47,866 bases of DNA from Bacillota bacterium. Lineage in GTDB: Bacteria > Bacillota > Limnochordia > DTU080. The notes beneath the pieces were generated by a model. The model saw only the letters and a list, made by a program, of their open reading frames with translations. It was not told the origin of the DNA and made no database searches. The stretch is from the NCBI GenBank assembly GCA_012840225.1, contig DULU01000018.1, positions 1-47,866 on the forward strand, read 5' to 3'. Shown here piece by piece: positions 5,294-47,866 of this stretch (position 1 is its first letter; each line of letters begins with the position of its first letter). Both the position numbers and the translations under genes were made by a program.

Positions 5294-5514
5294 GTCATAT
5301 GCGAAAGAAACCGGTGCCAAGAATATTATCATATAAAATGCAGGTTTGGAAGTATTATAACGCCGTATGGCGGCGGCAGCTTTGAGCGGTTCGCTACTAT
5401 GCAGGAATCACCATAGCAGTGAAAGAACTCCAATTACATACCGGTCAGGCGGAGCAGATTTGTCGAACTACGCCGGTTTCACAGCCGAATTTTCCGGGCA
5501 AAGGGAGGATACAT

Positions 5515-11813: not shown

Positions 11814-13082
11814 TCACCAGGTGAAGGGCGCTTCCTTCAGCAAGGTGTTGATGGTGGTTTCGATCTCCCCCATGGCCTGGGCTGTGCTCTTTTCGCCTTT
11901 AGCCACAGCAGTCAAGGCGGCGATGAAGGGGCCTTGTATCTGCGTCCAGTTCGGAGAGATCAAGAGCGGCACATCCCAGAAGTAGTTGCTCCCTTCCAGC
12001 ATGGAATAGACATCCTCCAGTGTGAGGGAATAGCGGGTCTGGAATTGTTCGGTCCACTGCCGGTAGTACCGGCGATTCACTACCGGAGCGTTCCCGGAAC
12101 GGTAGTCGGCCCAGTACATCACCCCGTCGTCGGCGGTAAAGAATTTTATAAACTCCCAGGCGGCTTCGGGATCTTGAGCCGTCTTGCTCATGGCCCAGCC
12201 GTTGATGCCGCCCTGCATGGCCGACTGAGTCCCCCAAGGCATCGGCGCCACGGCCAGTTCGTACGCCTGGGTATTGGCGGCAAAGGCCGGCGGCGGCGTC
12301 TGCCCTATTCTCATGGAATACTGTACCCCGCTGTGCGCTCCCCACCGCGGCGTCACCATATAGGTGAGCGAGAGATCCATCCATTTGTTGATGGCGTCGA
12401 TCAGCGGCGGGGTAGCCCCGAGGAAGCGGTTGTTATATGGATCAACCCATTGCTGACCCCATATGCCGACATAGAGCCAGCCGAATTGGGTGGGAAACTC
12501 CAGACCCCAGCGATCGATCTTACCGTCGCCGTCGAGATCCCGCGTCAGCTTGCGGGCCGTCTCGACAAAGCTGTCCCACTGCAAAGCGCTGTGGCCCCAC
12601 CTGGTCGGCAGCCGCTCCAAACCGGCCTCCTTAAAGTGAGCGGCGCTGTACCACAGCACGGTGGAGGACACCTCATAGGGGATGAAAAAGTGCTGGCCTG
12701 TCGGCTTGAAAGCCCAATAGTTGATCACCGGATCGGGGAAATCCGACTTATCAAAGCGATCCCGCTCCATATATTTGTCAAGCGGTACGATGAAGTCCAA
12801 CGCCTTGGACTGGTAAGCCCTGGCCTGGTCCACCCGCACCACGTCGAACGGCAAACCGGCGGCAATCATGGAACGCACCCTGGTCTCATACTGAGTCCAG
12901 GTAGTGGCGATGCACTCGACTTCAATACCGGTCCTTTTGGTAAATTCGGCAGCTGCTTGCTCTGTACCCTTGATGTTTCCCGTAGCATCTATTACGACGA
13001 TCTTCCTGGCAGCAAAAGCTTCTCCGGCCATGAGCACAGCCAGAAGCATTATTGCCGCCAATACTTTAGCAACAGCCTTCAT
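11814..13082 (-). CDS. ABC transporter family 1 solute-binding protein
   Basis: This is a 422-residue extracytoplasmic sugar-binding protein with signal peptide MKAVAKVLAAIMLLAVLMAG (cleavage near AFA-AR). Family 1 traits are FDVVRVDQARAY in lobe 1, TVLWYSAAHFKEAGLERLP near the hinge, and INGWAMSKTAQDPEAAWEFI. The loop RDLDGDGKIDRWG looks like a calcium-binding EF-hand loop. ATG 13082 is preferred; a GTG at 13094 is in frame but overlaps the AAGGAG site. It is divergently arranged with another binding-protein gene at 13440, with no permease nearby. Confidence 0.92.
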   Translation of the reverse strand: MKAVAKVLAAIMLLAVLMAGEAFAARKIVVIDATGNIKGTEQAAAEFTKRTGIEVECIATTWTQYETRVRSMIAAGLPFDVVRVDQARAYQSKALDFIVPLDKYMERDRFDKSDFPDPVINYWAFKPTGQHFFIPYEVSSTVLWYSAAHFKEAGLERLPTRWGHSALQWDSFVETARKLTRDLDGDGKIDRWGLEFPTQFGWLYVGIWGQQWVDPYNNRFLGATPPLIDAINKWMDLSLTYMVTPRWGAHSGVQYSMRIGQTPPPAFAANTQAYELAVAPMPWGTQSAMQGGINGWAMSKTAQDPEAAWEFIKFFTADDGVMYWADYRSGNAPVVNRRYYRQWTEQFQTRYSLTLEDVYSMLEGSNYFWDVPLLISPNWTQIQGPFIAALTAVAKGEKSTAQAMGEIETTINTLLKEAPFTW

Positions 13083-13439
13083 TGATAAAACCACTCCTTA
13101 AAACTGATTCTCTTTCCGGCAACGCCTTTTCTCTGCCCGCCCAATTTCTGCGTCTGCGGCATGGACTTTGACCGCCGGCGGCCGGTGGCGGTATTAATTA
13201 CGCCTCACATAATAATTCACTGGTCCCAAAGTAATATCCCTCCAGCCGTCCTGAATACTAAAATCACAATATTTGTTCTCTATGTGGCTATATAAACTTA
13301 AAATATTTATGTTATTTGGTATTCCTGCCTTTTCCTGGTGTATATGCTGCTGATGTGGTATTATGATTTATGTAGGTTAGCACAATTTGGATTCGGCCTC
13401 ATCGTATCACCACAAATATTAAAAGTATGGAGGGTTTGC
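13083..13439. other. AT-rich divergent control region between two binding-protein genes
   Basis: This 357-base gap separates two divergently read binding-protein genes and must contain both promoters. The half from about 13195 to 13330 is distinctly AT-rich. I could not find an unambiguous -35/-10 pair on either strand. The plus-strand frame from 13338 into the second gene lacks a ribosome site and is not counted as coding. Confidence 0.5.
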
Positions 13440-14735
13440 ATGTCAAAGTTACAACAGTCGGTATTGGCAATAGTGTTTATTGTTTGTTTGTCGCTCGTGT
13501 CGCCGTCGGCTACCTGTGCAAAGGAGAAAACTGTGGTCGATTTTTGGTGGGGCGGCATCGCCAACTACACTGAGAATATGATGCAGCTGGTGCAGGATTT
13601 TAACGAGCAGAATACCTCCGTGGAAGTGCGCATGACTGTGCAGCCGCATATCGGTATGTCGGGAGTGGGTATCGAGACGCTGAAAACGGCCATTGCCGGC
13701 GGCGCACAGCCTGATGTGGTCGTTCTGGACGGTACCATCCTCATCGGCCTGGCCATTGAGGACGGCCTTTTTATGGATCTGAGGGAGATTATAGACCCTT
13801 CGTTTCTGTATGCCATCCCATATGCCGCCAACATAAAAAACTACGTGATGTTTAGGGACAGCGTTTATGGCATACATTTTCAGACCGATGCCCGCGGTCT
13901 CTACTTCAACCAGACGCATTTCGCCGAGGTGGGGTTGGACCCGAGAAAAGGCCCGAAAAGCATAGATGAGCTGGATCAATATGCCGCCAAACTCACCCGC
14001 AGAGATGCTCAGGGCCGGATAGAAAGGCAAGGTTATTCCCCCAGGGGCGGCAATTTCGGCTTGGAGCTTGGATGGTTTTGGGTGTTCGGCGGTAATGTTT
14101 TCGACTATAACACCATGCTGCCGACCTTTACAAATAATGAAGCTCACCTCGCGGCGTTAAGATGGATTGAATCGTATGCCGATAAATACTCGACTGCGGC
14201 AATCACCAGCGCCGGCAATAACTTCATGGCCGGCAAAGTATCCATGAGCGTACAAAGCACGAGCCTCCTCGGGACGCTGCCGGTTCAGGCTCCGGATATG
14301 GAATGGTGGGTAAGCACCATCCCCTACCCGCCTGAGGGCAGGCTGATAACCATGTCGTCCGGTTACTCGGCGGTGGTTCCCAAAGGGGCCAAAAACGCTG
14401 TGGCTGCGGCGGAATTCATCCGCTATCTGATCGACAAAAACACCCAGATGAACTGGTATCGCATGACGAAGACCGTCCCCACCAGAGTTGATGCCATACT
14501 CGAGTTGGTACAAAAGCGGGAGATCACCGATCCGAGAGCCATCTGTATGATAGAGTTGATGCCCACTGCAGCCGAAATTTACCCACCGCTATTCGTAAAT
14601 TATGTACTTCCTCAGTTGAGCAATTACATAAACCAGATGTGGAATAAGCAAATTCCGCCGGCCGAAGTGCTTGAAAAGGTACAGTTCGCTGTCGAACCGG
14701 AATACAGGCGTATTTTCCATGGGAAAGCCTTTTAG
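13440..14735 (+). CDS. ABC transporter family 1 solute-binding protein
   Basis: This 431-residue sugar-binding protein has signal peptide MSKLQQSVLAIVFIVCLSLV (cleavage near TCA-KE). Family traits are AGGAQPDVVVLDG in lobe 1, the hinge-side GLYFNQTHFAEVGLDP, and VVPKGAKNAVAAAEFIRYL. Where two neighbours have a calcium-type loop, this one has the degenerate LTRRDAQGRIERQG, which keeps the loop position but not the ligands. The ATG at 13440 is preceded by GGAGGG at 6 bases. It precedes the PL6-like lyase gene by 150 bases in the same direction, so it may capture lyase products. Confidence 0.92.
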   Translation: MSKLQQSVLAIVFIVCLSLVSPSATCAKEKTVVDFWWGGIANYTENMMQLVQDFNEQNTSVEVRMTVQPHIGMSGVGIETLKTAIAGGAQPDVVVLDGTILIGLAIEDGLFMDLREIIDPSFLYAIPYAANIKNYVMFRDSVYGIHFQTDARGLYFNQTHFAEVGLDPRKGPKSIDELDQYAAKLTRRDAQGRIERQGYSPRGGNFGLELGWFWVFGGNVFDYNTMLPTFTNNEAHLAALRWIESYADKYSTAAITSAGNNFMAGKVSMSVQSTSLLGTLPVQAPDMEWWVSTIPYPPEGRLITMSSGYSAVVPKGAKNAVAAAEFIRYLIDKNTQMNWYRMTKTVPTRVDAILELVQKREITDPRAICMIELMPTAAEIYPPLFVNYVLPQLSNYINQMWNKQIPPAEVLEKVQFAVEPEYRRIFHGKAF

Positions 14736-14886: not shown

Positions 14887-17800
14887 ATGAACATCTCGCT
14901 TCCGCTCCAGTTCCCGCATCCTTACCCGTTCCTCATCTCGCTCCCGCTCCCACACCAGCTCCCGCTTTCGGTGGCGAGACGCCTTATCCAGCTTTGTGGC
15001 CTCGTCGCCATTCTGGTCATGGCTTTCGCACCGGTCCTGCTGACGAGCCAGGCTCAGGCTGCGGCGGCCGCCGCCGGCGCGGAGGCACCGGTCGACTCCG
15101 GCGAAGCCAACCTTTTGACCAATCCCGGATTTGAAGATGTAGTCAATAACGATTTTCCGGGATGGACGCGCTATGTACCGATGGGCAATAGAAATGGTCT
15201 GCAGATATCCACCGACGCCAGGAGCGGCAAATATTCCGCCCTGGTAGACGTGGCCGCCGCCCTGAAAGACTCCGACAGCAGCGTAGCCAGGCTTGATTGG
15301 TCGCAACGGTTGCGGTATAACATGGACCTGCAAGTGAAACCGGTTCCCGGAGAAAAATACCGCTTTTCCGTATATTACAAGACGGAAGGCAATCCCAAAG
15401 GCAGACTGGGCGTGGAGCGGCGTCCGCACATGACTAACGTCTATCTCAATCTGGCGCCCTCGCCGGATTGGCAGTATGCGGCCGTAGAATTCGAATGGCC
15501 GGATGCCGCCGACTGGAATTTGGTGTTCGGCCTGTGGGCCTGGGAAGCCCGGGAAGGCAAAATCTGGTTCGACGATGCTCGCCTGGAACAGGTGCTGCCG
15601 GAAACGGAGAAGGCGCCTGTGGAAAGAGTCCGGTGGCAGGATCCGGCGGCCGTCTTCTCCCTCCCATACACCGATGCTTCCGGCCTCTCCCGGCCATATA
15701 TCAATCAGGCCAAGCGTTTGACGTTCGTGCAATCGCTGTCCGAGCTTACGGCGGCCATTGCCGCCGCTATGCCGGGCGACACCATCATCCTGGAAGACGG
15801 CGAATATTACGGATATACATCGGTCATCATCGAAGGCAAACATGGGACGGAAGAACGGCCGATCGTCATTGCAGCGAAGAACATCGGCCAAGCCGTCATG
15901 CGCGGCTCGGCCCAATTTATAATTAAAAACTCCAGTTACATAGTGGTGGAAGGCCTGGATTTCCGCCTTTCATCCGGCGGAGCCCCCGGATATTCGGGAC
16001 GCAGGGAGAATAGCGCCGTTATCTTGCATGATGCTCTGGGCGCCAGGATCACCCGCAACCGCTTTGCCCTGGAAGAAGAATATGGCGGCACCTCGCTGCG
16101 GGACTGGATAAACGTTGACGGCAGCCGGGGTGGATATAACCGCATTGATCACAACCTATTCGAAAACAAAGTGCACAACGGCAGCTATATTGCCGTCAAT
16201 GCCGATCTGGGGCGAAATCAGGGCATCGACACCACGCCCAGGCACACCCGGATTGATCACAATCACTTTCGCCACATGGCTCCACTGGGTATCAACGGCA
16301 TGGAAGTGATCCGGCTCGGCTCGTCCGGCTATCGCGATATGGCCCATATCGAGGCGCACACCATCGTTGAATACAACTTGTTCGAACAGGCCGACGGCGA
16401 AAAATCGGAGATCATCTCCATCAAAGACAGCGGCAATATCATCCGTTACAACACCTTTCTGGAAACAGCCGGCAGTGTAGTTCTGCGGTTCGGCCACCAC
16501 AACTCCATCTATGGAAATTATTTCCTGGGCAAGGGCAAACCTGGTACCGGCGGCGTCCGCATATATGGCTTCAGGCAGCAGATCTTCAATAATTACTTTG
16601 CCGATTTAGCCGGGCCGGCTATTATCTTCGGTCGGGGAAGCATTGAGGATCCGTATGCTTTGCCTAAAGGCGAGCTTTATTATTCAGGAGCCGAATATGT
16701 GCAGATGGATGAGGTGGAGGTGGTGATGAACACCTTCATCAACAATAATGCCAACTTCGACCTGCGGGGCGATTGGCCGCTGGAACCAAGGCGCACCACC
16801 GTGGCCCACAATTTGCTGGTGGCCGGCAACAACTACAACCACATCATCGGCAGCAGCTACCGGAATCTGTTGTCTCACGACGGCATCAGGTGGGTGGGTA
16901 ACATGGTCAGCGGTCCGGTCAACACTTTGCTGGGTCTGTCTTCCTCCTCCGAAGGCAGTTTTATACCGGTCGACCTGGAGCTTATGAGAAGCCTCGACGA
17001 TATTTATTACCCCGTTGCCGGGAGTCCTACGATCGATGCAATAGAGGTCGGAGATGCTTATGGTTATGTAACCCGCGACATCGAAGGCAAGCTCCGGGAC
17101 GAACATCCTGATGTGGGCGCCTTTGAATACCAGGGATTTCCCCTGGTGCAAGGTCCGCTCTCCCCTGCCGAGGTCGGTCCTTTTTGTCCGGATGAACGCC
17201 GGGAGTTGACCTTTGCCGAGCCGCTGGTGACCATCACTTCCCTCCAGTTTACCCCGCACACATCCGGAACACCCGTGGTGCTCTCCGGTACCAGCCTGCT
17301 CCAACTGGCCGGTGTCGTCCTGGGGGCAGGTGAAGCAGACGAGAAGACAAGTCTATCTGTTGATGTCACTGTCAGTATCGATGGAGCCGAGTTCTTCTCT
17401 GAGCGGGTGGCTGTGGCCGGCTTGACCGCCGACACCTTTGCCGCCGATGCCGGCTTTGCTGATGGCGGTTTTGCGGGTCCCGGCTTTTCCTTGGAGATAC
17501 CCATAAACACCACCAACCTGGACGAAGGCGAGCACAGCCTGCGCCTTGTGGCAGAAGTGAACGGTAGGCGCACCCTGCGTGAGCTCATGTTCAGCGTGCA
17601 AAATATAGAGATTATGACGCCTGGAGCCCGGAACGTGGTGACCGGTAAGGGCATTATCACGATCAAATCGCTTTTGCCGGCTGCCGAAATACGCCGGGTG
17701 CATATCTCCATCGACGACCAGCTGATATTCCAAGGCGAGGTCATCCCGGATAAGCTGGAGTTCGACTCCCTTTCTTTCAGCGACGGTCGCCGGCAACTGA

Positions 17801-18330
17801 CGGTGGAAGTGGAACGGCATAGCGGCGGGATCTCCCGAATCAGCGGGAACTTTAAGGTGGAAAACCTCTGGCAGACGGTCGACGAACTCCTGCCCCCGAT
17901 GCAGTTTTTCGGTCAGCTGCTGGATAGAGCCCAAACCTCAAGCCGCTCGGACGGCTGGGTTTATGCCACGGAAGCAGCCGACGATTTTCTGGGCGACGAC
18001 AGTCGCCTGACTGTGGGTGACGGGAGCACACCGCAATTTCTGGAGTGGGAAGCTCCTAATTTGCTTAAGGCGGCAGTCACGGTCTATTCTCAGGAACCAT
18101 TAATCAGTCCGCAAGCCATCGAGTTCGCACTGTCGCCGGATGGAGTGACATATAAAACCATCGAATTCTCTATTTCATCCGTCGGTCGCTCGAGTGCCGG
18201 CTGGAACAAATACCTGCTAACCGCCGAGACTCAAGGACAGGGACAGGACAGCAAACTCTTCCGCCTCACCATAAATCCCCACGGCGGCGAGATACAAATT
18301 GGCCTCGTGGAGTTGACCGGCCTTAGATAA
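14887..18330 (+). CDS. PL6-like polysaccharide lyase, multidomain, secreted
   Basis: This 1147-residue protein has an export signal at about residues 29-58 (LVAILVMAFAPVLL...AQA) behind an odd proline/leucine-rich start (LPLPHQLPL). Next come a carbohydrate-binding-like beta-sandwich (75-235, beginning LLTNPGFED) and a parallel beta-helix of the chondroitinase B/alginate lyase family (about 280-745). Lys513 (SIKDS) and Arg534 (LRFGHHN) are 21 residues apart, exactly as the catalytic Lys and Arg of known PL6 enzymes. Two Ig-like domains and a terminal module follow, and the end matches the 9682 protein. It should eliminate within uronate polymers such as alginate or chondroitin/dermatan. AAGGAG and AAAGG lie upstream of the ATG. 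Confidence 0.85.
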   Translation: MNISLPLQFPHPYPFLISLPLPHQLPLSVARRLIQLCGLVAILVMAFAPVLLTSQAQAAAAAAGAEAPVDSGEANLLTNPGFEDVVNNDFPGWTRYVPMGNRNGLQISTDARSGKYSALVDVAAALKDSDSSVARLDWSQRLRYNMDLQVKPVPGEKYRFSVYYKTEGNPKGRLGVERRPHMTNVYLNLAPSPDWQYAAVEFEWPDAADWNLVFGLWAWEAREGKIWFDDARLEQVLPETEKAPVERVRWQDPAAVFSLPYTDASGLSRPYINQAKRLTFVQSLSELTAAIAAAMPGDTIILEDGEYYGYTSVIIEGKHGTEERPIVIAAKNIGQAVMRGSAQFIIKNSSYIVVEGLDFRLSSGGAPGYSGRRENSAVILHDALGARITRNRFALEEEYGGTSLRDWINVDGSRGGYNRIDHNLFENKVHNGSYIAVNADLGRNQGIDTTPRHTRIDHNHFRHMAPLGINGMEVIRLGSSGYRDMAHIEAHTIVEYNLFEQADGEKSEIISIKDSGNIIRYNTFLETAGSVVLRFGHHNSIYGNYFLGKGKPGTGGVRIYGFRQQIFNNYFADLAGPAIIFGRGSIEDPYALPKGELYYSGAEYVQMDEVEVVMNTFINNNANFDLRGDWPLEPRRTTVAHNLLVAGNNYNHIIGSSYRNLLSHDGIRWVGNMVSGPVNTLLGLSSSSEGSFIPVDLELMRSLDDIYYPVAGSPTIDAIEVGDAYGYVTRDIEGKLRDEHPDVGAFEYQGFPLVQGPLSPAEVGPFCPDERRELTFAEPLVTITSLQFTPHTSGTPVVLSGTSLLQLAGVVLGAGEADEKTSLSVDVTVSIDGAEFFSERVAVAGLTADTFAADAGFADGGFAGPGFSLEIPINTTNLDEGEHSLRLVAEVNGRRTLRELMFSVQNIEIMTPGARNVVTGKGIITIKSLLPAAEIRRVHISIDDQLIFQGEVIPDKLEFDSLSFSDGRRQLTVEVERHSGGISRISGNFKVENLWQTVDELLPPMQFFGQLLDRAQTSSRSDGWVYATEAADDFLGDDSRLTVGDGSTPQFLEWEAPNLLKAAVTVYSQEPLISPQAIEFALSPDGVTYKTIEFSISSVGRSSAGWNKYLLTAETQGQGQDSKLFRLTINPHGGEIQIGLVELTGLR

Positions 18331-18504: not shown

Positions 18505-19551
18505 TTATCGCCCTTCTGCCAGCAGAGCGGCAATCTGGTCTTCGATACTGGCCATGGCCTGTTGCGGTGCCATCTGCCCGGCGCATACTTTGTTGACCAT
18601 GGAGAAAATGGTATTGGAGATGGTGGTGAAGTTCTGCAGATGGTTCGGGATGGGAGTGGCATAATTTAGCGCATCCAGGACGGCTTTGGCATTCGCCACC
18701 CCGAGCCCTTGCCGGAAGGCGGGACTGGTGACCACCGAACGCCTGGGCTGGATGATGATGCCGGCAGCCGACTGCCGCTGGGACATTTCCTTGCTGAACA
18801 TGAATTTAAAGAACTCGGCCGCTTCTTCCTTATGGGGGCTGGTGGCAATCAGGGCATATGGCACGGGCTGCAGCGACGTCGCCGGGCCGGCCGGTCCCTG
18901 CGGCAGAGCCGCCACTTCCCAGCCATAAGCCATTTTGGCATCACGGAGCAGTTGAATGACCGCCGGAGTCTCGTTGAGCATGGCTGTTTTCCCGGAGGCA
19001 AAATCGTTCCACGGTCCCCAGCGGAAAGCACCGTGCGAAAAGCCGTCCGCCAGATAGCGCAGTGTCTCAATACCTTGGCTGCTGCCGAGGTTCAGCCTGG
19101 TATAATCCGGATCGAAGAGCCCTGTGCCGCCTTGCGCAAACCAGTAAACCAGGTGGCCGATCACCTGGCCGAAGGTACCACCGGCCCTGTCGATTACCCC
19201 GTCGCCGTCTTGATCGATGCTCAGCTTGCGGGCGGCTTGTAAATAGGCCTCCCAGTTCCAGCTCCTGTCGAGCCAGTCGGCGGCCGGAGGATGCAGGCCG
19301 GCAGCACCGAAAAAGTCCGCATTATAATATAGATGGTAATAGGATATTCTCTGCGGAATCCCGTACAGTTTGCCTTTCACGGTCAAGGCATCCAACACCG
19401 GTTTATAAAAGTCGTTCAGATCAAAGGCGGGATCATTGCCCAACAGCTCACTCAGGTCAAGCAGGATGCCGTCCCTGGCCATGCCGTAGAAGTAGTTGGG
19501 GTGAAAATCGACGATATCCGGTGGTGTTCCCGCCGCCACCCTGATGCGCAC
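18505..19551 (-). pseudogene. Family 1 solute-binding protein lacking its N-terminus
   Basis: The 348-residue frame begins at RIRVAAGTPPDIVDF, which corresponds to about residue 70-85 of a normal family 1 binding protein. It then continues normally (YYNADFFGAAGLHPP, SIDQDGDGVIDRAGG, TSPHKEEAAEFFKFMFSKEMS) to the end. No signal peptide and no ribosome site are present, and the frame upstream is closed by TGA after a few codons. The missing part is replaced at about 19555-19575 by sequence reading as a toxin-antitoxin remnant on the plus strand. I judge it a 5'-deleted, non-exported relic. Confidence 0.75.
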
Positions 19552-35045: not shown

Positions 35046-35726
35046 CTAATCCAGAGCCAGCACCCGGAAATAGTCAAATTCGGCATCGGCTTTGTAGGCA
35101 TAAAGTCCTATGCGGGTGGCATCTTTCAGGATGCCGAAATGACGCGCCCCAATAAATTCATCGTTGACGAAGAAGACCACTTCACTGCCGCTCTCGGTGG
35201 CGTTCATTTCCAGGCGCACATCGACCATCTTCCCTACTTCGGGTTGAAAGTCAAACGGCATAGAAAGCGACACTTCCAGATCAGGTTCGGTGCGGCCGAA
35301 AGAATAGAAACCTCTCAGCCTGTGCATGAAGATGACGCGCTCAGAGAATCCCGTCCAGAGCACCACGCCGATATGGGCATTGCGCTGGTCGGTCACCTCT
35401 TTGAAGGCCATACGCGTCTCAACGGCGAAATTCCGCACCTCGCCGCTGATCGCGGCTTCCCCGGTCAAGATCACGGAAGCCCATTCTTCCGCCTCGGGGG
35501 CTTTGAGAGTCAGCTTCCCGTCCGCTATCTCTACCATTTCGCTGAAAAAATTCTCGCCAGTGGCCGTCAAGCCGGCACCTTTGCGGGCGCTCCACCAGGC
35601 CGAGCTCTTTTCAGCATCGGAAAAATCGTCGGCAAAGAGCTCTTTTTCCGCGCCGAGCGCCGGCAACGCCATTCCCAGCAAGAGCACCATCAATCCCGTC
35701 ATCGCCAAAAGCAGATACTTTTTCAC
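35046..35726 (-). CDS. Small secreted jelly-roll-like protein, paralogue of AraC C-domain
   Basis: This 226-residue exported protein has signal peptide KKYLLLAMTGLMVLLLGMAL (cleavage near ALG-AE), then a beta-rich domain of about 195 residues beginning LFADDFSDAEKSSAWWS. The pattern (DDF..WW, internal GVVLWTGF, VFFVNDEFIGARHFG and terminal FDYFRVLALD) recalls concanavalin-like/laminin-G jelly rolls that bind or cut glycans. I cannot identify a catalytic pair. The whole domain aligns with the C-terminal half of the AraC-type protein at 39924. It is the third gene of the operon, 5 bases after the glycoside hydrolase stop. Confidence 0.8.
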   Translation of the reverse strand: MKKYLLLAMTGLMVLLLGMALPALGAEKELFADDFSDAEKSSAWWSARKGAGLTATGENFFSEMVEIADGKLTLKAPEAEEWASVILTGEAAISGEVRNFAVETRMAFKEVTDQRNAHIGVVLWTGFSERVIFMHRLRGFYSFGRTEPDLEVSLSMPFDFQPEVGKMVDVRLEMNATESGSEVVFFVNDEFIGARHFGILKDATRIGLYAYKADAEFDYFRVLALD

Positions 35727-35731
35727 CTATA

Positions 35732-38392
35732 TCACCTCTCCAGTAATTCGATGCTGTTGATCTGGTACGACACGACATCTGCAGTCGGATTGCACCCGAA
35801 ATAAATGCGTTTGATGCTGCTCAGATCCAGAGGACCGCGCACATCCAGCCAGTTGGGCTGGAACAAATCGGCGAACAGGAAGACCATCTCCTGTGGTCCG
35901 TCTAACAGTTTATACGGCTGAGGCGGAAAATAGCGCCGGTTCCCGCCGTCAAGCACGGAAAACTGGCAGGTGGCGCCGCCTGTGGTTTCTCCGGTGATCC
36001 GGAACCTGATGCCGGCAAAGCCCGACAGATCTACCGGTACCCTGAACTGCATGTAAGGATAGGCCCAGCGGTCGCCCTGACCGGAGAAACGGTGCTCGAA
36101 CGTGGCCAGGCCTTTGGTATAATCCTCACGCGTCTGGCGGATACGGGTGGTGCCGTGGGAGGCAATGTAGGGGGTCCAGCTGGGCATGTTCATCTTTAGA
36201 GCGTCGGTTATGGCTATATATTTGCCCCTTTGGCTCCAGTCGACTACAAACCGGGAGACCGATGTGGAGGCCAGGCTGCCGTCGGCGTTATAACCATTGA
36301 TGGTGATATAATAATCCTCCGCTAAAAGTCCTGTCGGGACCTGCATATGGAAGGAGAGCACAGCCTTGCTCATCGGCGCCACTTCCACCGGCGCTTCTGA
36401 CGGAGCAAAGGCAAACCCCGGCGTAAATTCCGGTTTGATCAGGCCGCGCCATGTTTCCTCGCTGAAATTATACACCTCAAGCTGGAAATCCGTGCCGATC
36501 AGCGGAAGGTTATAGCCGAGCGGCGGGCTTTCCAGCTCTCCGGCCGGCAGCAAATTCCGGTCCCAGCGGGGGAACAAGACAATCGGGGACAAGGTGGCCG
36601 CATCGCCGGCGCTACCGTTACCGCTACCGCTATCGCCGCTACCCGCCACCGCCTGCGTCCGGACGGTATCCCTTTTGATCAGGTTGGCCGGGCGCATTAT
36701 GTCGTCTGCCGGCCAAGCAACCCCGGTGATATATACCGGCCAGTTCCCTACTTGGATGGTGTAGACGTCGTTGACCAGAGATATTGCCTCCGCACTCGTC
36801 CGGCCCATCACGTCGGTAACCAGCGGCCGGCCAAGCTTTTCCGGCACCCGCAGTGTAACCGGGCTGCCCTCGGTCCAGGCCACAGCCACCTGCCCGGCAC
36901 CTGAATCAAAGACATGCACCAGGCCGCCTTCCAGCTTGATCTCGCCCAGATAGCGTCCTTCGCCCAGCATCCTGGTGATGGTGGCCAAGGCGACATATGC
37001 CGGGTGCGGCGTCAGATCGGCCCGCAATATACCCGACTGGCGGCCGCCGATATTTTCCGGACGCATAAAATGAGGCAGGACAAACCAGAAAAAACGGTCG
37101 ATCCCTGCTGCCGCCGACTTGGTGAAGGCGCGCACCAGGTAGTGCACCTGCGCCTCCGCCGCCGGCATATACGGCGAGCCCGGAGAGGGGATAAAATGGC
37201 GCCCCGACTCCGTAATCCAGACTTCCCGATCCCAGATCTGCCACTTCTCAATGAACCGGACATGCTCATCGAGGAACTGCTCATAGGTGGATTTGGTGGC
37301 ATCGGCATAGGTATGGAAGGTATATATGTCCATATATGGCGCCACGCCGTTGCGCATGACCAAGTCGGCATAGAGCCCGGGCGTGTGCGCCAGGGGCCCG
37401 AAGGCCACCTGCACTCCGCTCCCGCCCCCGTCACCGCCCCCGTCACCGCCCCCGGCCTTGAAGCCTAAGGCGGCGGCCTTAAAGGCGGCGGCATAATGAT
37501 CGCCGGGTTCAAGGCTGAAGGTATGATCATGCTCGTTCCAAAACTCCCAGGCCTGTACCTCTCCAGCAAACCGCTCCGCTACCGCTTTGGAGAAGTTATA
37601 GACAGCGATGAGATCATCCGGCACTTTCATCTCACTGCGGCTCTTCGCCCAGTTCGGGGCATTATGATAAACCTGCAACACATTGATGCCGGCTTCGTGC
37701 TGGGCGGCGGCACTTTGGGCATATATGCCCCACTCGAATTTTCCCTGCTTCCCTTCCACAGCCGTCCAGCTCATCCGGTCCCGCACCCAACTCACTCCGG
37801 AAAGGCGCACCAAATCCGCCAGTCCCCCGAACTTGTCGCTGCCGACCAGCCAACTCATGGCGGCGTCGACGGCGAAAAGCGTCTGCCGGAAGGATCCGCT
37901 TTGGCTTTCCGGCATTTCCGGCATGGCCGGCAGGACGGCAAAAGTGATGAATGGTTCCTGATCATAGGTGCGATCGGTGCCGGGACGATAGGTGAAAGGC
38001 ACCGGTTGCCCAGCATTGCTTAACTCCAGCTGCAGGCGGTACCAGCCCGGCTCGAGCGCCACTGAAGGAGTGTAGGTGATCCGCCCCATGGTGCCCGTCA
38101 TGCGCGGCACCAGAGTGCCCTCATCCACCACCTGGTTCCAAAAGTTGGTAACTATATAGGCGGCGGCCGGCTCTCTCATCCTGCCGCCGGTCACCGTCAC
38201 CAATAGGTCGATAACCAGTGGCTTGTCTACAGTGAATACATTGTGCCCGAACGGATTGGTCTCCGCTGCCGGAATGGTCTGCAACACCGCGGTCATGAAA
38301 TTCCCGGTACTCCCTTCGGCAGACGGCGCTAGTGTCAATGCGGCCAAAAGCGCCAATAATGCCCAGATGCTTTTCTGCGTACGGTTTTTCAT
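35732..38392 (-). CDS. Secreted clan-A glycoside hydrolase (GH39-like), multidomain
   Basis: This 886-residue enzyme has a signal peptide (about 1-27), an N-terminal beta-sandwich (about 35-155), a (beta/alpha)8 barrel (about 170-500), an all-beta accessory part, and a terminal carbohydrate-binding-like domain (about 740-885). The retaining clan-A pair is visible: acid/base Glu287 in WEFWNEHDH and nucleophile Glu395 in VWITESG. The exact family is uncertain. A GGGDGGGDGGG insert (314-324) sits between barrel elements, and GSGDSGSGNGSAGDA forms a linker near 610; both come from short tandem repeats. The ATGA overlap with the binding-protein gene shows coupling. Confidence 0.85.
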   Translation of the reverse strand: MKNRTQKSIWALLALLAALTLAPSAEGSTGNFMTAVLQTIPAAETNPFGHNVFTVDKPLVIDLLVTVTGGRMREPAAAYIVTNFWNQVVDEGTLVPRMTGTMGRITYTPSVALEPGWYRLQLELSNAGQPVPFTYRPGTDRTYDQEPFITFAVLPAMPEMPESQSGSFRQTLFAVDAAMSWLVGSDKFGGLADLVRLSGVSWVRDRMSWTAVEGKQGKFEWGIYAQSAAAQHEAGINVLQVYHNAPNWAKSRSEMKVPDDLIAVYNFSKAVAERFAGEVQAWEFWNEHDHTFSLEPGDHYAAAFKAAALGFKAGGGDGGGDGGGSGVQVAFGPLAHTPGLYADLVMRNGVAPYMDIYTFHTYADATKSTYEQFLDEHVRFIEKWQIWDREVWITESGRHFIPSPGSPYMPAAEAQVHYLVRAFTKSAAAGIDRFFWFVLPHFMRPENIGGRQSGILRADLTPHPAYVALATITRMLGEGRYLGEIKLEGGLVHVFDSGAGQVAVAWTEGSPVTLRVPEKLGRPLVTDVMGRTSAEAISLVNDVYTIQVGNWPVYITGVAWPADDIMRPANLIKRDTVRTQAVAGSGDSGSGNGSAGDAATLSPIVLFPRWDRNLLPAGELESPPLGYNLPLIGTDFQLEVYNFSEETWRGLIKPEFTPGFAFAPSEAPVEVAPMSKAVLSFHMQVPTGLLAEDYYITINGYNADGSLASTSVSRFVVDWSQRGKYIAITDALKMNMPSWTPYIASHGTTRIRQTREDYTKGLATFEHRFSGQGDRWAYPYMQFRVPVDLSGFAGIRFRITGETTGGATCQFSVLDGGNRRYFPPQPYKLLDGPQEMVFLFADLFQPNWLDVRGPLDLSSIKRIYFGCNPTADVVSYQINSIELLER

Positions 38393-39699
38393 TTGTAGTA
38401 AGCCTCAACTTCTGCATCCATGCGTTCCTGTATAGTCTCCAAAGCCACCGCCGGGCTCATCCTGCCCTGGTAGACCTGTTGCAGGAGGCTGGTCGTAGTG
38501 GAGGTGAGCACCGAGTAACCCGGCACGCTCGGCAACGGCCCCTGGGCAAAGGCGGTATACTCCACAAAAGTGCCGTAATGCTCCCTGTTTTCCAGCATGA
38601 CTCTCATGTAGGGATTGTTTCGCTTGATGGTGAGCTCGCCCATATCCACGCCCCAGATCATGGCCACCTCATCGGACTGGATCCAGAATTTGATGAATTC
38701 CCAGGCCGCTTCAGGATATTTGGTGGCTGCCGACATGGTGAGACCGAAGCCGCCGCTCACCCTGATGCCGTCGGTCTTGTTGATGCTGGGATGATAGGGC
38801 AGCCACACTACCCGGTAATTTACCGGCCGCTCATAATTGGTCATACCCTGGTTGTAACCGTTGAGCCACAACACCATAGCCGACGCTCCGTAGGCCAGCT
38901 GCGCCGAGGTGTTGTTGCGCATGCGGTAGACGTCGGTGCTTTGGTAGTTGCCATGTCCTACATTTTGATACCAATTGTTCAACCAGTTCAGGGCCGCCCG
39001 GGTCTCCGGGGTATTGATGTTCCAGCGTGGACCGTTGGGGGTCTCCACCGCGAACACCGCGCCGAAACGCGCCGCCCACTGGTTGAAGGCGTTCCATTCG
39101 CCATAGATGGAAAACGGGAACATCCCCACCCGCTTGATCTTACCGCTGTCGTCAATAATCGTCAGCTTGCGGTTGGCCGTTTCCAGATCATAGACCGTCT
39201 CCGGCGGCTGGTTGGCATCCAGACCGGCTTCGCTGAACATATCTATGTTGATGGCCATCATCTGGGTGGTGAGCTCCAACGAGACGGGAGGCGCCCATTG
39301 ATCGCCGTTATAGCTCATCGCTTCCCAGGTGCCGGGGAAAAAGTAGTTTTTGTCCAGACCGTCACGCTTGAAGAAAGAAGTGAGCGGCTGAATCAGGCCA
39401 TTTTCAATCCACTCGAGATCCAGGCCGCCCAGAATAGCCACATCGGGCGGCACCCCGGCTGCCGCCGCCACCATGTATTTCTGCCGGGCTTCGGCCGAAT
39501 TGGCCCCTGTATTCGGTACCACGTCGACTTTAATGTCCGGATGCGCCTTTTCAAAGGCTTCCACTATGGTACGGACCACTTTATCTCTCTGCGTCCCCGC
39601 ACCCCAAGTGTGCCACATGGTAATTGTCGTGCGCGCCTCGGCCAATCCTAAACCCAATACCAAGACCAAGACTATCACGCTTACCAACCACTTGCGCAT
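38389..39699 (-). CDS. ABC transporter family 1 solute-binding protein
   Basis: This is a 436-residue sugar-binding protein, the first gene of the glycoside hydrolase operon. The signal peptide is MRKWLVSVIVLVLVLGLG (cleavage near AEA-RT), followed by TITMWHTWGAGTQRD, the usual first strand. Further family traits are AGVPPDVAILGG, MMAINIDMFSEAGLDA and SAATKYPEAAWEFIKFWI. The loop IDDSGKIKRVG replaces the calcium-type loop of other copies. The ATG at 39699 has AAAGGTGGG upstream; the frame to 39750 is rejected. No permease genes follow; instead a hydrolase gene does, which is unusual. Confidence 0.93.
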   Translation of the reverse strand: MRKWLVSVIVLVLVLGLGLAEARTTITMWHTWGAGTQRDKVVRTIVEAFEKAHPDIKVDVVPNTGANSAEARQKYMVAAAAGVPPDVAILGGLDLEWIENGLIQPLTSFFKRDGLDKNYFFPGTWEAMSYNGDQWAPPVSLELTTQMMAINIDMFSEAGLDANQPPETVYDLETANRKLTIIDDSGKIKRVGMFPFSIYGEWNAFNQWAARFGAVFAVETPNGPRWNINTPETRAALNWLNNWYQNVGHGNYQSTDVYRMRNNTSAQLAYGASAMVLWLNGYNQGMTNYERPVNYRVVWLPYHPSINKTDGIRVSGGFGLTMSAATKYPEAAWEFIKFWIQSDEVAMIWGVDMGELTIKRNNPYMRVMLENREHYGTFVEYTAFAQGPLPSVPGYSVLTSTTTSLLQQVYQGRMSPAVALETIQERMDAEVEAYYK

Positions 39700-39732
39700 C
39701 TGTAACCCACCTTTCTTTTTTGAAATGCTCTC

Positions 39733-39749
39733 TGCCAAGCATATTGGCA
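39733..39749. promoter_or_regulatory. Inverted repeat in the operon control region
   Basis: TGCCAA-N5-TTGGCA (39733-39749) lies 34 bases upstream of the binding-protein start codon, in the 224-base gap after the AraC-type gene. It is a candidate operator. I saw no sure -10/-35 pair. The far side of the gap (39880-39920) contains GGGATAGCC repeats. Confidence 0.4.
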
Positions 39750-39923
39750 AACATTTGCATTTCTAATACTTTTTGATAATAATTTTCTTTCTGTGCCGGA
39801 GCGATGTTTCCTTTGCAAGAAACGCGTGATTCGGTGTACAAAACGCAAGTGCTGTTTTAGCAGCGTGATTGCTGATCGGGTCTGGCCGGGGATAGCCAGG
39901 GATAGCCGGGATAGCCAGGAAGG

Positions 39924-41363
39924 TCAATAAAGATTCGTCACCCGGAAATAATCAAACACCCCTTCCGCCAGGTGGACATATAGGCCAATTTGCTGCGCCC
40001 CCTGAAGCAAGGAGAACCTGCGGGCGCCGACAAACTCGTTGTTTATATAAAAGCTGACATGGCTGCCGACATGCTCGCCTCTCACCTCCAGGCGCACCTC
40101 GATCATCTGCCCTTCCGCCGGGACAAAGCCCACCGGATGTGCCAGGGTCACTTCCCGTTCAGGATCGACCCGGCTGAAGGAGGCAAATCCTTGCAGGCGG
40201 TAAACAAACAAAATGCGATCAAAAAAGCCCGTTCTCAGCACGATGCCGATTTTTTCGTTGATAGGATCCTGCACATTTTGCAAGGTCAGCCGGCATTCGA
40301 CCACGTAATTTTTCAGCGCCTCGCCGTTCAGGGCGTCGGGCTTTAAAATCAGCGAACCCCATTCCTTTTCGCCGGGCGCCTTCATGACTAGGCAGCTGTC
40401 ACGCATGGTCAACAGATCATTATAAAAAGGCATATGGCTCGGCGTATTGAGGCCGGCGCCATGCCTCACGCTCCACCATTTTTCCGTCTGTGCCGCATCG
40501 GTGAAATGATCCTCGAACAACAGCCTTTCCGCCCCGGTGGCCATACTGCGGAAGACAGAGGGCGGCACCCCTTCGACTTTGGTAAAAGTCCTGCTGAAAT
40601 GGTGCACATCGTTGAAGCCTGTGCGGATGGCTATCTCGCCGATGGCGAGATCGGAACCGAGTAAAAGAGTCTTGGCCTGGGAAATGCGCATATTCTGCAG
40701 GGCAGTCCTAAACGAGACGCCCATTTCGCTCTTGAACAGAGCCCGCAGGTGGCCCTCGCTGACGTTTACCTCTCTGGCGACCTCCGCCATAGTGATGGAC
40801 TTATGGAAGTGGGAGCGCATATATTGCAGCGCCTGCTGTAGCCGGCTGTCTATCTTCGCCAGCCCCGTCTGGAGATCAATGCCTGTAAACCGGCAGAATT
40901 CCGCCAGCCACATGCGGGCTTTGCCCGACAGGTACAGCCGGTCGAGAGCATCCATCTGTTCGGCATACCGCTCGCTATATTCGGCCATCTCGATCCACAG
41001 ATTGGTTACCGCCGGCGGAAGACTCTGCTGCTTAATGTGCAGCTCCCGGCCGGCAAAAAGATCGGTGCCGTCCAGTTCCATCTCACAACCTAGAGTGAGG
41101 TAAACTGCTTCTTCATAGGCAGAAGCATTCCAGATCTCCGTAGAGACAAAGGCAGGGATGATCATCAGCTCGCCGGAGTGCAGAGTATATTCGCAGGCAC
41201 TTTGGCGCACACCGACGGCGCCCCTCAGCACATAGCATATCTCCGTAAAGGGCTGTTGAGCGGCTCCCGCTCTGCGCCAGGCCGGCGACAGGCGCACCTG
41301 CCCGACATGGCGCAGGCGCAGCTGCAGGTGGTCAATCGCCTGTGGATGTTGGTAGCCAGCCAT
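39924..41363 (-). CDS. AraC family regulator with C-terminal jelly-roll-like domain
   Basis: This 479-residue protein is much longer than the roughly 300 usual for the family. An N-terminal cupin lies at about 15-110 (FTEICYVLRGAVGV, HSGELMIIPAFVSTEIW), and an AraC double helix-turn-helix at about 170-272 (MAEVAREVNVSEGHLRALFK, AIRTGFNDVHHFSRTFTKVE). A further domain of 200 residues (279-479, LLFEDHFTDAAQTEKWWSVR ... GVFDYFRVTNLY) is homologous over its full length to the small secreted protein at 35046. No signal peptide or membrane helix is visible, so this extra domain is cytoplasmic. It probably activates the binding-protein/hydrolase operon downstream. GGAGGAGG precedes the ATG. Confidence 0.92.
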   Translation of the reverse strand: MAGYQHPQAIDHLQLRLRHVGQVRLSPAWRRAGAAQQPFTEICYVLRGAVGVRQSACEYTLHSGELMIIPAFVSTEIWNASAYEEAVYLTLGCEMELDGTDLFAGRELHIKQQSLPPAVTNLWIEMAEYSERYAEQMDALDRLYLSGKARMWLAEFCRFTGIDLQTGLAKIDSRLQQALQYMRSHFHKSITMAEVAREVNVSEGHLRALFKSEMGVSFRTALQNMRISQAKTLLLGSDLAIGEIAIRTGFNDVHHFSRTFTKVEGVPPSVFRSMATGAERLLFEDHFTDAAQTEKWWSVRHGAGLNTPSHMPFYNDLLTMRDSCLVMKAPGEKEWGSLILKPDALNGEALKNYVVECRLTLQNVQDPINEKIGIVLRTGFFDRILFVYRLQGFASFSRVDPEREVTLAHPVGFVPAEGQMIEVRLEVRGEHVGSHVSFYINNEFVGARRFSLLQGAQQIGLYVHLAEGVFDYFRVTNLY

Positions 41364-41610
41364 ACGTCGGCTCCTCCTCCGGCAAATTTACCTGCCTTTA
41401 TCCTTTTATCTCTTACTTCTTCCATTTCTTCTCGGTGGGCAGCCGACAAACCTTTCAGTGGTATGAGCACGATGATGGAGGCGACCGCTTTTATGCAGGG
41501 AGTTTTCAATTGGCTGAGGCAAATCAGCAGCTCAAGGCGTGTCTATATGCATTCTCTTATCGTCCAGCGCTTCTCCCCGCCCGCCACCACACGTCGCTAA
41601 CCACAGTGAG

Positions 41611-41889
41611 GGGGTGTCCAATTAATTCCACTATCTGACCGGACAGGGTGGGGTGGTGTCCAAATTATGCCGCAACAGGCGGGCATCGGGTCGGTGGAGG
41701 CCTGGTGGAGGGGAGTTTTTTCCAGTTTATGGCATTTTTTCGGTATTTCCTTCCATTTCTTTCCTGAAATCGCTCATCATGGCCTATACCGAAATCTTGA
41801 GGGAATAATTTGGACACCCCGGCGAGTTTGTGTCCCAATTTGGACACCCCCGCGCCCTCCCCCCACGGATGGGGCAAAAAATGGACACT
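41611..41889. mobile_element. IS21-like end element, copy 1
   Basis: The left side has GGTGTCCAATTAATTCC (41613-41629) and GGTGTCCAAATTATGCCGC (41655-41673). The right side has GGAATAATTTGGACACC (41802-41818), CCAATTTGGACACC (about 41835-41848) and ATGGACACT (41881-41889), in inverted orientation. The length of 279 bp is too short for a transposase. Assignment to IS21 is by the multiple-terminal-repeat pattern only. Confidence 0.55.
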
Positions 41890-42270
41890 ATTTAGTGTGG
41901 AAGGTTCTTCTCAGAGAGTTGCTAGGTCACTTTTGAAAGTTGAGGGTTCTCAATCAATGGATTGACCGAAAGCATTTCATCCGGGAGGTGGGCCAAAGAA
42001 ATCCATCGTACTCACCTCTCCCCTTTCTTCTCTCCCGGAGGGTCTGGATGTTCGGGAGGATCCGGTTGGTCTACACGGGCAAGGCGCAATCGATAAACCA
42101 TCATGCACGGGAATGGAAAACGACCGCCTTTACGCAGGGATTTTGCAATTGTCCGAGGCATATCAGCAGCTCAAGGCGTGTCTATATGCATTCTCTAATT
42201 GTACAATGAATCTTACCGCCAGCTGCCGCCCACAACCGTCTGTCACCATATGCCGCCGGCCACGGCAAGG

Positions 42271-42535
42271 GGTGTCCAAATCATGCCGCTATCTGACCGC
42301 ATGGTGGGGAGGTGTCCAAATCATGCCGCAATAGGCGGGTATCAGGTCGGTGGAGGGGAGTTATTTCCAGTTTATGGCATTTTTTACGGTATCTCCTTCC
42401 ATTTCTTTCCTGAAATCGCTCATCATGGCCTATACCGAAATCTTGAGGGAATAATTTGGACACCTTGGCGAGTTTGTGTCCCAATTTGGACACCCCCGCG
42501 CCCTCCCCCCACGGATGGGGCAAAAAATGGACACT
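42271..42535. mobile_element. IS21-like end element, copy 2
   Basis: Copies of GGTGTCCAAATCATGCCGC at 42271 and 42311 face the inverted GGAATAATTTGGACACC at 42448-42464, then CCAATTTGGACACC and ATGGACACT ending at 42535. The inner part is almost identical to copy 1 (including CTATACCGAAATCTTGA). Confidence 0.55.
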
Positions 42536-42832
42536 CCAACGGGTGGGGTAATTCTTCACAGAGGTTTCTTTTGAGATTAGGTTCTCAATCGAGAGTTTGG
42601 CCAAGAGCATTTCCTCTGGAAGGTGGACCAAAGAGATCCTTCTCAAGGGTGCCTACACGGCGAGGGAGTAATCGATGCTTCGCCAGGCACGATAATGGAG
42701 GATGACCGCTTTTATACAGGGAATTTGCGTTTAATAAAGCATATCAGCAGCTCAATACGTGTCCATATACATTCTCTTATTGTACAACGCATTACTTCAC
42801 ACGACACAACACACCGCCAGCCACGGCAAAGG

Positions 42833-43110
42833 GGTGTCCAAATAATGCCGCTATCTGACCGGTCATGGTGGGGAGGTGTCCAAATCATGCCGCAACAATC
42901 GGGCATCGGGTCGGTAGAGGTCTGGTGGAGGGGAGTTATTTCCAGTTTATGGCATTTTTTCGGTGTCTCCTTCCATTTCTTTCCTGTAATCGCCCCCCAT
43001 GCCCCCAACCGAAATCTTGAGGGAATAATTTGGACACCCCGGCGAGTTTGTGGCCCAATTTGGACACCCCCGCACTCCTCCCTCCACGGTTGGGGCAAAA
43101 AATGGACACT
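42833..43110. mobile_element. IS21-like end element, copy 3
   Basis: GGTGTCCAAATAATGCCGC at 42833 and GGTGTCCAAATCATGCCGC near 42875 face the inverted GGAATAATTTGGACACC at 43022-43038, a second inverted copy, and ATGGACACT ending at 43110. The inner part is more diverged than in copies 1 and 2 (for example CCCCCAACCGAAATCTTGA). Confidence 0.55.
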
Positions 43111-43298
43111 CCGATGGGTGGGAAGTAGTGCGCGAGGCTCTCCACAGAGACAGAGAGCCGCTGGGTCTCTTTGAGAGTTAAGGGATCTCTTTCGAGAGTT
43201 ATGGGGTCTCAATCGCTGGATTGACCGAGAGCATTTCCTCCAGAAGGTAGAAGGTGGGCCAGGGAGATCCATCCCACTCCACTCCCTACCCACCTCCA

Positions 43299-44561: not shown

Positions 44562-45809
44562 TTAAACGAGAGATTGCCTGAACTTCTCGATGCTTTCATA
44601 TACCTCGAGATTGACTGAGTGTTCTTTCAACCACTGCCGGCATATCCGGTCCACTAGTTCCGTTTCCCGGGCGAGCTTATGAGTCTCATGCGGATCACAG
44701 GCCAAAAGGTTCGGCCAGTCCAGTTCGGCGTAATAGGAACCGAATTCGCGATAAAGATTAAACTTCGCCTGCCGGCCGATGAGGCGATGCAGCTCCGCCA
44801 CCATGCCGCTCAGCTCTTCCTGCTGTCTCCAGGCGGCGATGGCCGCTTCCACACTCCGCTGTGCTTCACAGCAGTTCAGTATTTTCCGCCAGCCGTCTTT
44901 AAGTTCGGGATAGGCGCCGGCAAACACCTCCGGTACCGTTCTGGTGGTAGCGCCAGTGGCGGTTGTGGCGGCAGCAGCGGTGGTGGCACCAACAGCGGTG
45001 GTGGAGGTGGTAGCACCAACAGCGGTGGTGGAGGTGGTAGCACCAACAGCGGTGGTGGAGGTGGTAGCACCAGCGGCGGTGGACTGCTGAAATTGCCAGA
45101 GGATCTGCCTGGTGCCCAAGGCCAGTTCTTCACCGGCAGAGAGGATATCCCGAGGTTGCATGGAAGTGCAGATGGTCTGCACCAGCGTCTCAAATCCTGC
45201 CGGTTTGACAGGCATCTTGGCGGCCTGGGTGACCACGCTGAAATAACCTTCATCAAAGAGCACCTGATTGGCGAGCGCCAAGCATTCCCAGGCAGCAAAT
45301 AGCAAATTAAAGCCGGCATACCTCACATCCACCACATCACCGCCGGCCGCGGCCAGGCGCAGATTGCCGAGGTGGGCCAATACCGCCGGGAAGGCCGTGA
45401 GCGCCCGCCTGATCATCACGGGGCGGGCTTCCGGTTGCTGCAGGGCGACTATCTTCTGCTTGAGTTCCTCCAGGCGCTCCTCTGCGGCTCCGGACTTTAC
45501 ATATACCGGCCTGGCATGAAAAACCAAAGCCGGAGCCAGCGACCAGCCGCGCCATCTGCCTGTGGCCAAACTCTCCAGCCTGTCCCAGCTGAGCGGCCAG
45601 AAGTCAAAGAGGACTCCGGAGATGATCACGGAGCGGGCCACCGGGGGATTTTTCCCTTCCGAGGGTACATAGAACATGTCCAGATCCGAATGGGCGGTGG
45701 CCGTTCCCTTGGCATATGAACCATAATAAGCTACCAGATCGATCTGGTCGGCATAATGTGCGGCGATATAAGCTAAAAAGAGGTTGAGCACCTGAAAAAC
45801 ATCGGGCAT
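44562..45809 (-). CDS. Nucleotidyltransferase-domain protein with tandem-repeat insert
   Basis: This 415-residue protein has an N-terminal nucleotidyltransferase domain. The motif GSYAKGTATAHSDLD (residues 30-44) gives the GS signature and the two metal-binding Asp residues (42 and 44 region). Relatives transfer nucleotides to antibiotics or proteins, and the true substrate here is unknown. The middle and C-terminal parts are helical, in the manner of aminoglycoside/streptomycin-type transferases. Residues about 240-291 are a threonine/alanine-rich insert with three exact TTSTTAVGA units from a 27-bp repeat. It starts 4 bases after the HAD gene stop. Confidence 0.85.
   Translation of the reverse strand: MPDVFQVLNLFLAYIAAHYADQIDLVAYYGSYAKGTATAHSDLDMFYVPSEGKNPPVARSVIISGVLFDFWPLSWDRLESLATGRWRGWSLAPALVFHARPVYVKSGAAEERLEELKQKIVALQQPEARPVMIRRALTAFPAVLAHLGNLRLAAAGGDVVDVRYAGFNLLFAAWECLALANQVLFDEGYFSVVTQAAKMPVKPAGFETLVQTICTSMQPRDILSAGEELALGTRQILWQFQQSTAAGATTSTTAVGATTSTTAVGATTSTTAVGATTAAAATTATGATTRTVPEVFAGAYPELKDGWRKILNCCEAQRSVEAAIAAWRQQEELSGMVAELHRLIGRQAKFNLYREFGSYYAELDWPNLLACDPHETHKLARETELVDRICRQWLKEHSVNLEVYESIEKFRQSLV
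44986..45085. repeat. 27-bp tandem repeats inside the nucleotidyltransferase gene
   Basis: Three to four copies with period 27 bp (units starting near 44986, 45013, 45040 and 45067) contain CACCAACAGCGGTGGTGGAG. They are in frame and encode TTSTTAVGA. The flanks (44940-44985) hold decayed GTGGCGGTTG-like copies. Confidence 0.9.
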
Positions 45810-46867: not shown

Positions 46868-47866
46868 TTATTCGGCAGACAGAAGTGCATTAAGCTCAAC
46901 ATCTATATACTCAAGAGCATTGCTTAGCGATATTTCGCGTTTGCTGACTTTCTCCCACCAGGTTCTAAACACCTGGTTAGTACTTTCTGTAGTAACTCCT
47001 TTGGGGAGCCGATCCATATCAAGCGCTGTAGGTAACACATCAATCCACAAATGTTTGTTATATGGCCGACTTGACGAAGGAGCAAACATTTCTGCAGCTA
47101 ATTGTCTATCCCCAGGTGGGTAAACAGCTATATCCGCATCAATGGATCTTGCCAGCCTTTGAGCCTCAGGGCTGACGATGAATTTTGCTAACTTATATGC
47201 CTCCTCGGGATGCTGGGTTGTAGGGCTAAGTGCCATTGTGGTCACGATGACACCTGTAGTAGAATTTTTCGGACCTACAGGCACAGTCGCCACTTCAAAT
47301 GTCGTACCATAAGTTTCGTTCGGTAAAGAGTAGTATATGTTACCGAGTAACATACCAACCCTACCTTGAGAATAGGTATTAACCGGGTCAGGTCCCTCAA
47401 CTCCCCAACCCATATGAGATCGGTCCTCAACCTCCAGTTGATACATGAATCGCCATGCTTCATGTGCCTCAGGTGTGTTGACGGTCGATCTTCCTGTGTT
47501 GAAGTTATACATATCGGTTCCTGCCGACCATAGCCAAGTGCGAATTCTGTGTTTCCACTGACTATATGTTGCTGTGCCCCAGATGTTTGGTATTCCGTCG
47601 CCATCTGTATCCTTGGTCATACGACGAGCTGCGATGCGGAAGTCTTCCCAGGTCCAATTATAAGCAGGAGGTTGTAGCGCAGCTTCCTGCCAGAGGTCGA
47701 CATTGTAGCATGTATTATAGGTCCACCAATAAAGTGGTATAGCTAATATCCGTCCATTATGAGAAGTAGCTTCGAACAAAGGTAATGGTATCCTCTTATA
47801 CGGGGAATTTGGGTCAGGATCGTTCTTCACCAGATCGGTTATATCTCTAATGAAGTTGCGATAATA
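46868..47866 (-). CDS. ABC transporter family 1 solute-binding protein, partial
   Basis: The frame is open to the right edge; 332 residues are visible and the N-terminal lobe with the signal peptide lies outside. Family traits are IPLYWWTYNTCYNVDLWQEA at the hinge, YNWTWEDFRIAARRM, and TTMALSPTTQHPEEAYKLAK. The loop KDTDGDGIPNIWG resembles a calcium-binding EF-hand loop as in two other binding proteins here. The base composition is more AT-rich than in its neighbours, which may point to separate origin. A terminator follows directly. Confidence 0.9.
   Translation of the reverse strand, partial: YYRNFIRDITDLVKNDPDPNSPYKRIPLPLFEATSHNGRILAIPLYWWTYNTCYNVDLWQEAALQPPAYNWTWEDFRIAARRMTKDTDGDGIPNIWGTATYSQWKHRIRTWLWSAGTDMYNFNTGRSTVNTPEAHEAWRFMYQLEVEDRSHMGWGVEGPDPVNTYSQGRVGMLLGNIYYSLPNETYGTTFEVATVPVGPKNSTTGVIVTTMALSPTTQHPEEAYKLAKFIVSPEAQRLARSIDADIAVYPPGDRQLAAEMFAPSSSRPYNKHLWIDVLPTALDMDRLPKGVTTESTNQVFRTWWEKVSKREISLSNALEYIDVELNALLSAE

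Follow-up and report, generated by a model that had tools for sequence, protein, structure and literature searches.

An AraC-type regulator encoded in a 47,866-nucleotide stretch of DNA from a Bacillota bacterium (the window, meaning the whole stretch that was analysed) carries, behind its DNA-binding helices, a C-terminal domain that is also found in a secreted protein encoded nearby. The domain was apparently joined to the regulator by a gene fusion, apparently specific to this lineage, and the pairing suggests, as far as sequence can be read, that the cell may read a sugar inside with the same module that it uses outside. This could be the first AraC-family regulator to use a lectin-type (ConA/CBM-like) domain for glycan sensing, the domain having been captured from the secreted protein of its own cluster, so that one specificity would serve capture outside and gene control inside, a proposal to which we give somewhat less than an even chance. 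The features of the regulator and its secreted counterpart are as follows.

39924..41363, minus strand: araC-type gene, 479 aa, with a cupin arm, an AraC helix-turn-helix (HTH) and a C-terminal lectin-like domain
40869..41363, minus strand: cupin-like N-terminal arm, about residues 1-165, with weak Pfam cupin/AraC_binding matches, aligning over its full length with three ordinary AraC paralogs
40545..40841, minus strand: AraC double helix-turn-helix, residues 175-273 (PF12833, 78.3 bits)
40524..40544, minus strand: short linker around SMATGAE, residues 274-280, similar to the stretch of the secreted 226-aa protein where the signal peptide is cleaved
39927..40523, minus strand: fused ConA/LamG-type jelly-roll domain, residues 281-479, assigned from alignment, profiles and a model
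35046..35726, minus strand: secreted 226-aa protein P0002, a signal peptide followed by the same ConA/LamG-type domain

The double HTH places the regulator in the AraC/XylS family (PF12833, 78.3 bits against a curated cut-off of 33.6), with HTH_18 at residues 196-273 (E 5.5e-22), while the cupin matches are weak and confined to the first 100 residues. A GGAGGAGGAG ribosome-binding site precedes the ATG of the open reading frame, and from its position the protein is a putative DNA-binding regulator of nearby genes. Paralogs that match the whole AraC half and are themselves of ordinary length occur in the same genome (C34, 37% identity; C58, 34%) and in a related genome (31%), and in alignment they end within a few residues of the start of the extra domain. 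The tail after the HTH is at most 27 residues long in 29 of the 30 AraC-type proteins of the genome that were examined and 203 residues long in the regulator, where about 7 residues join the extra domain to the HTH. The regulator has neither a signal peptide nor a membrane segment (its 19-residue hydropathy peaks at 1.15, that of the secreted protein at 2.24). It is very improbable that an assembly or sequencing artefact joined two genes here: the genome is a draft of 154 contigs with an estimated contamination of about 4%, but the frame is uninterrupted across the junction, the fused copy is only 45% identical to the nearby one and so did not arise as a duplicate in assembly, the two sides resemble each other in composition (GC3 0.70 and 0.66 in the two halves, and 0.68 in P0002), and the genome holds no third copy as the source of a mis-join. 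A check for a missed stop codon or an assembly error near 40525, which the earlier note had proposed, likewise found an intact frame, with no frameshift, stop or join visible at about 40529.

The fused domain is homologous to the mature part of the secreted protein. Regulator residues 275-478 align in BLASTP with residues 23-225 of P0002 at 45% identity and 67% similarity with one 1-residue gap (203 aligned residues, 195 bits, E 2e-64), and the local alignment score against P0002 is 465, where the maximum of 500 shuffles was 61. The earlier note had described, from the letters, a full-length alignment of residues 279-479 with the mature secreted protein, a set of shared motifs, a regulator copy located after the DNA-binding helices and an exported copy three genes downstream. 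All four descriptions were borne out: the quoted motifs occur in both copies, the domain (281-479) follows the HTH (175-273) and P0002 is the third gene after araC. The homology claimed from residue 279 stands, but its exact start does not, as similarity is already present from residue 275, through the ATGAE linker. The pair is set apart by a WWS.R.GAGL.T segment close to the N-terminus and by an RL.GF.SF.R stretch; with only two sequences to compare, the conserved residues do not single out a binding site.

The similarity precedes the domain proper (SM-ATGAE-RLLFEDHF in the regulator, LP-ALGAE-KELFADDF in the secreted protein), and the ALGAE of the secreted protein spans the likely signal-peptidase site. 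Because the ATGAE linker resembles this cleavage region, the junction suggests, through four identical residues only, that the regulator may have taken up its extra domain from a copy of the secreted gene that had been cut inside the signal-peptide sequence. The two copies differ at 0.365, 0.310 and 0.586 of the three codon positions and use a different codon at 48 of their 92 identical residues, a pattern that indicates a long divergence of the pair under protein-level constraint and points to purifying selection on both domain copies. These data also bear on a passenger fusion, in which a local duplication and the loss of a stop codon would have joined the domain to the regulator, with little or no function there. 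The occurrence of the fusion in one genome only and the short linker with signal-peptide-like residues are in keeping with such an origin, but the intact frame, the single gap at 45% identity and the codon pattern of purifying selection argue against free decay, and we regard it as improbable; the codon pattern, being common to both copies, is weaker evidence for either one.

A whole-genome search found the domain in two copies only, the regulator and P0002. No relatives of the domain were found in 151 related genomes or among plasmids, nor with a two-row profile in 399 phylum and 73 class genomes, where the weak matches look like chance on re-examination, nor in GTDB contigs or IMG/VR, for which the scans were insensitive and needed near-exact short peptides. 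With an eight-row profile and 300 phylum genomes, an AraC HTH was present at none of the 30 best loci with related domains; several frames among these 30, at about 470 aa, have a length that would suit such a fusion, but they encode secreted proteins in which a lectin-type part is joined to other domains. At three loci (L137, L139 and L140), all in one family of the phylum (f23), related jelly-roll domains are fused, in secreted proteins, to glycerophosphodiester phosphodiesterase-like domains recognised by eye.

Neither copy of the domain has a Pfam or NCBIfam match (Pfam at E up to 10), and no convincing PDB sequence match was found, the two-row profile included. Against a reference profile of PF06439/LamG-type domains gathered from genomes of the same class, the pair matches over residues 7-204 with a probability of 95 (E 3.9e-8), compared with 0.4 for the reversed profile, 6.4 for the best of 100 column shuffles and at most 1.0 for eight unrelated window proteins, and the single copies reach 91.2 (P0002) and 61.4 (regulator domain). 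A second profile of 12 phylum sequences, which is only partly independent because these were found with a profile containing the pair, gives 91.9. AlphaFold on the two-row alignment produced an all-beta model (pTM 0.61, pLDDT 54.6; the whole regulator folded from a single sequence reached a pLDDT of only 31.7), and its Foldseek matches in the PDB are ConA-like jelly rolls, namely GH43 C-terminal domains, CBM66, GH16 glucanases and PL7 lyases, with E to 1e-7 and moderate TM-scores of about 0.4-0.6, as expected from a modest model. Whole-domain profile similarity and the all-beta jelly roll of this modest model place the pair in the ConA-like/LamG superfamily, and both routes, profiles and Foldseek, agree with the common fold that had been proposed for the two copies, a type that is often glycan-binding.

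Within this superfamily, intermediate sequences link strongly to the CBM66 of levanase (98.6; 4.5e-20), but the pair gives a direct probability of 0.6 against the levanase module and does not connect directly with typical PF06439 members. For this reason the domain is best placed, on profiles and a model, close to CBM66 as a putative divergent branch of the ConA/LamG jelly-roll superfamily, and is filed as neither CBM66 nor a 3-keto-disaccharide hydrolase. Three more specific assignments were rejected: the PF06439 3-keto-disaccharide hydrolases (no Pfam match for either copy; typical members at a probability of 0.4), DUF1961 (no match to the pair over the full length, probability 5) and the clostridial neurotoxins, whose lectin-like subdomains share the general ConA-like jelly roll at 6-15% identity, a likeness that implies no kinship with toxins. 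CBM66/ConA/LamG modules (levanase 4azz/4b1m; a xanthanase module, PMC11002231) are of the same fold class as the pair but, unlike the regulator's domain, belong to secreted enzymes. Fructan ends or xanthan can be bound by modules of CBM66 type (PMC11002231).

Between the regulator and P0002 lie the following features.

39700..39923, minus strand: intergenic region, presumed promoter or regulator-binding region of the downstream genes
39885-39919: direct repeat of 9-10 bp directly after the araC stop, GGGATAGCCAGG, about 3.6 copies, with three GGGATAGCC(A/G)GG repeats at 39889-39919
38389..39699, minus strand: ABC solute-binding protein (SBP) of UgpB/MalE type with a signal peptide (PF01547, 6.9e-24; likely ATG start at 39699)
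35732..38392, minus strand: 886-aa secreted glycoside-hydrolase-like protein, PslG-related (PDB 4zn2, E 1.5e-7, residues 174-477)

The NCBIfam UgpB/MalE match of the SBP is below the cut-off. The start of the hydrolase gene overlaps the SBP stop and P0002 follows the hydrolase after 5 bp. The secreted protein had been said to belong to the regulator's own operon, a description that goes further than the layout supports: araC is co-directional, but about 225 bp (39700-39923) set it before the tightly packed SBP-hydrolase-lectin unit. Promoter and terminator scans returned little beyond chance. Because the neighbours are a sugar-type SBP and a PslG-related secreted hydrolase, a glycan-use cluster is likely. 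PslG acts on an exopolysaccharide, and an exopolysaccharide or a plant glycan as the ligand is a reasonable guess, no more. Related hydrolases have comparable neighbours in two other genomes, one (G016) with an SBP gene directly upstream of the hydrolase and a GntR gene before it, the other (G028) with an SBP gene, an intervening gene, the hydrolase and then an AraC gene (SBP, GntR and AraC by eye), such that these hydrolases occur elsewhere with an SBP and a local regulator and without the lectin fusion.

Several other elements of the window were recorded. There are six sugar-type SBP genes (5419-6768, 11814-13094, 13338-14735, 18505-19551, 38389-39699 and 46868-47830; five by eye), with no permease gene seen beside them, and two large secreted polysaccharide-lyase-like proteins, one of chondroitinase-B type and one a beta-helix protein (14887-18330 and 9682-11646). 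Just upstream of araC, three head-to-tail repeats of about 580-640 bp (41482-43122, plus a partial copy at 43188-43276) belong to a dispersed tandem repeat family without a clear gene and with paired GGGGTGTCCAAAT-type motifs, whose 31 matches are spread over at least a dozen of the genome's contigs, with rows of up to five on one contig. A 27-bp tandem repeat (44943-45082; 3.9 copies, 96% match) in a nucleotidyltransferase-like gene encodes an Ala/Thr/Ser-rich linker.

The reading that we favour, at about even confidence, is that the C-terminal domain would act as a second input, binding an imported glycan or its fragments, and would be coupled to the adjoining HTH by the linker of about 7 residues. 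P0002 would bind a polysaccharide outside the cell, the PslG-related hydrolase would cut it and the SBP would carry the fragments to an importer; inside, the regulator's C-terminal domain would bind these fragments or a terminal sugar on them, and the ligand-bound regulator would bind DNA, or activate, differently in the promoter region at 39700-39923. The cluster genes would in this way be switched on once their own ligand is taken up, with a logic as in Bacillus Btr. Sensing is favoured by the 45% identity with one gap, the signs of purifying selection and the fold of a glycan-binding superfamily; by the lack of a signal peptide or membrane segment and the closeness of the domain to the HTH; and by the sugar-type SBP and PslG-like hydrolase, the SBP-hydrolase-regulator neighbourhoods of two other genomes and the Btr/FeuA precedent. 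Against it, no permease gene is adjacent to the SBP gene at 38389-39699, the ConA-like fold is also used for structural or enzymatic roles, and relatives of the hydrolase occur elsewhere with ordinary regulators.

The ordinary cupin arm has also been retained and could be the sole sensor. Intact and aligning with ordinary regulators, this arm is consistent with a fused domain that serves dimerisation or stability only, as dimers are common among ConA-like lectins; such a role leaves the identity with the secreted protein's domain in the same cluster unexplained and is unlikely. Production of two copies of one domain in the same cell by one cluster would also allow homotypic feedback, with the regulator's domain binding not-yet-exported P0002 or competing with it for ligand and expression thereby tied to export of the lectin, but Sec precursors are normally kept from folding, and this arrangement is improbable, to about the same degree as the passenger fusion. 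Should the domain sense a glycan, as in the favoured reading, the inheritance of sensing specificity from an extracellular binding protein would become directly testable, and lectin-type domains would join the known inputs of the AraC family and point to a way of designing glycan biosensors.

The arrangement has counterparts in several known systems. In the LacI/GalR repressors and the periplasmic sugar-binding proteins, a cytoplasmic regulator and an exported binder use the same ligand-binding fold; that relation is ancient and family-wide and involves the substrate-binding-protein fold and another HTH, whereas the fusion here is a single one and apparently lineage-specific. Rob of E. coli, also of the AraC family, has an additional ligand-type domain behind its HTH, but this domain is GyrI-like, and Rob has neither an N-terminal cupin nor an exported sister domain. 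The closest likeness is to Bacillus YbbB/Btr, an AraC regulator that by its annotation carries a FeuA-like substrate-binding domain and is encoded upstream of feuA (PMC3896406). In both cases the C-terminal domain of an AraC regulator duplicates an exported binding protein whose gene lies beside its own, and the order of parts is the same (NCBIfam model NF049932, HTH at 160-262 of 531). Btr reportedly responds to its siderophore, a finding ascribed to Gaballa and Helmann in 2007. In Btr a siderophore substrate-binding protein, with another class of ligand, takes the place of the lectin-type jelly roll, and the present regulator scores 46.7 bits against a Btr cut-off of 900 with only the HTH aligning, so that the two are compared in how they would work and not as members of one type. 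No AraC protein with a ConA/LamG domain was found in the open-access literature, and the statement of the earlier note that no AraC protein was known to have been described with this architecture therefore stands for this domain but not for the principle, which Btr/YbbB already embodies (PMC3896406). A lectin-type module at the C-terminus of an AraC regulator appears to be new within a general design known from Btr, and offers a clear case of a regulator with a module acquired from the very system that is probably under its control, in which a trace of the signal-peptide junction may survive.
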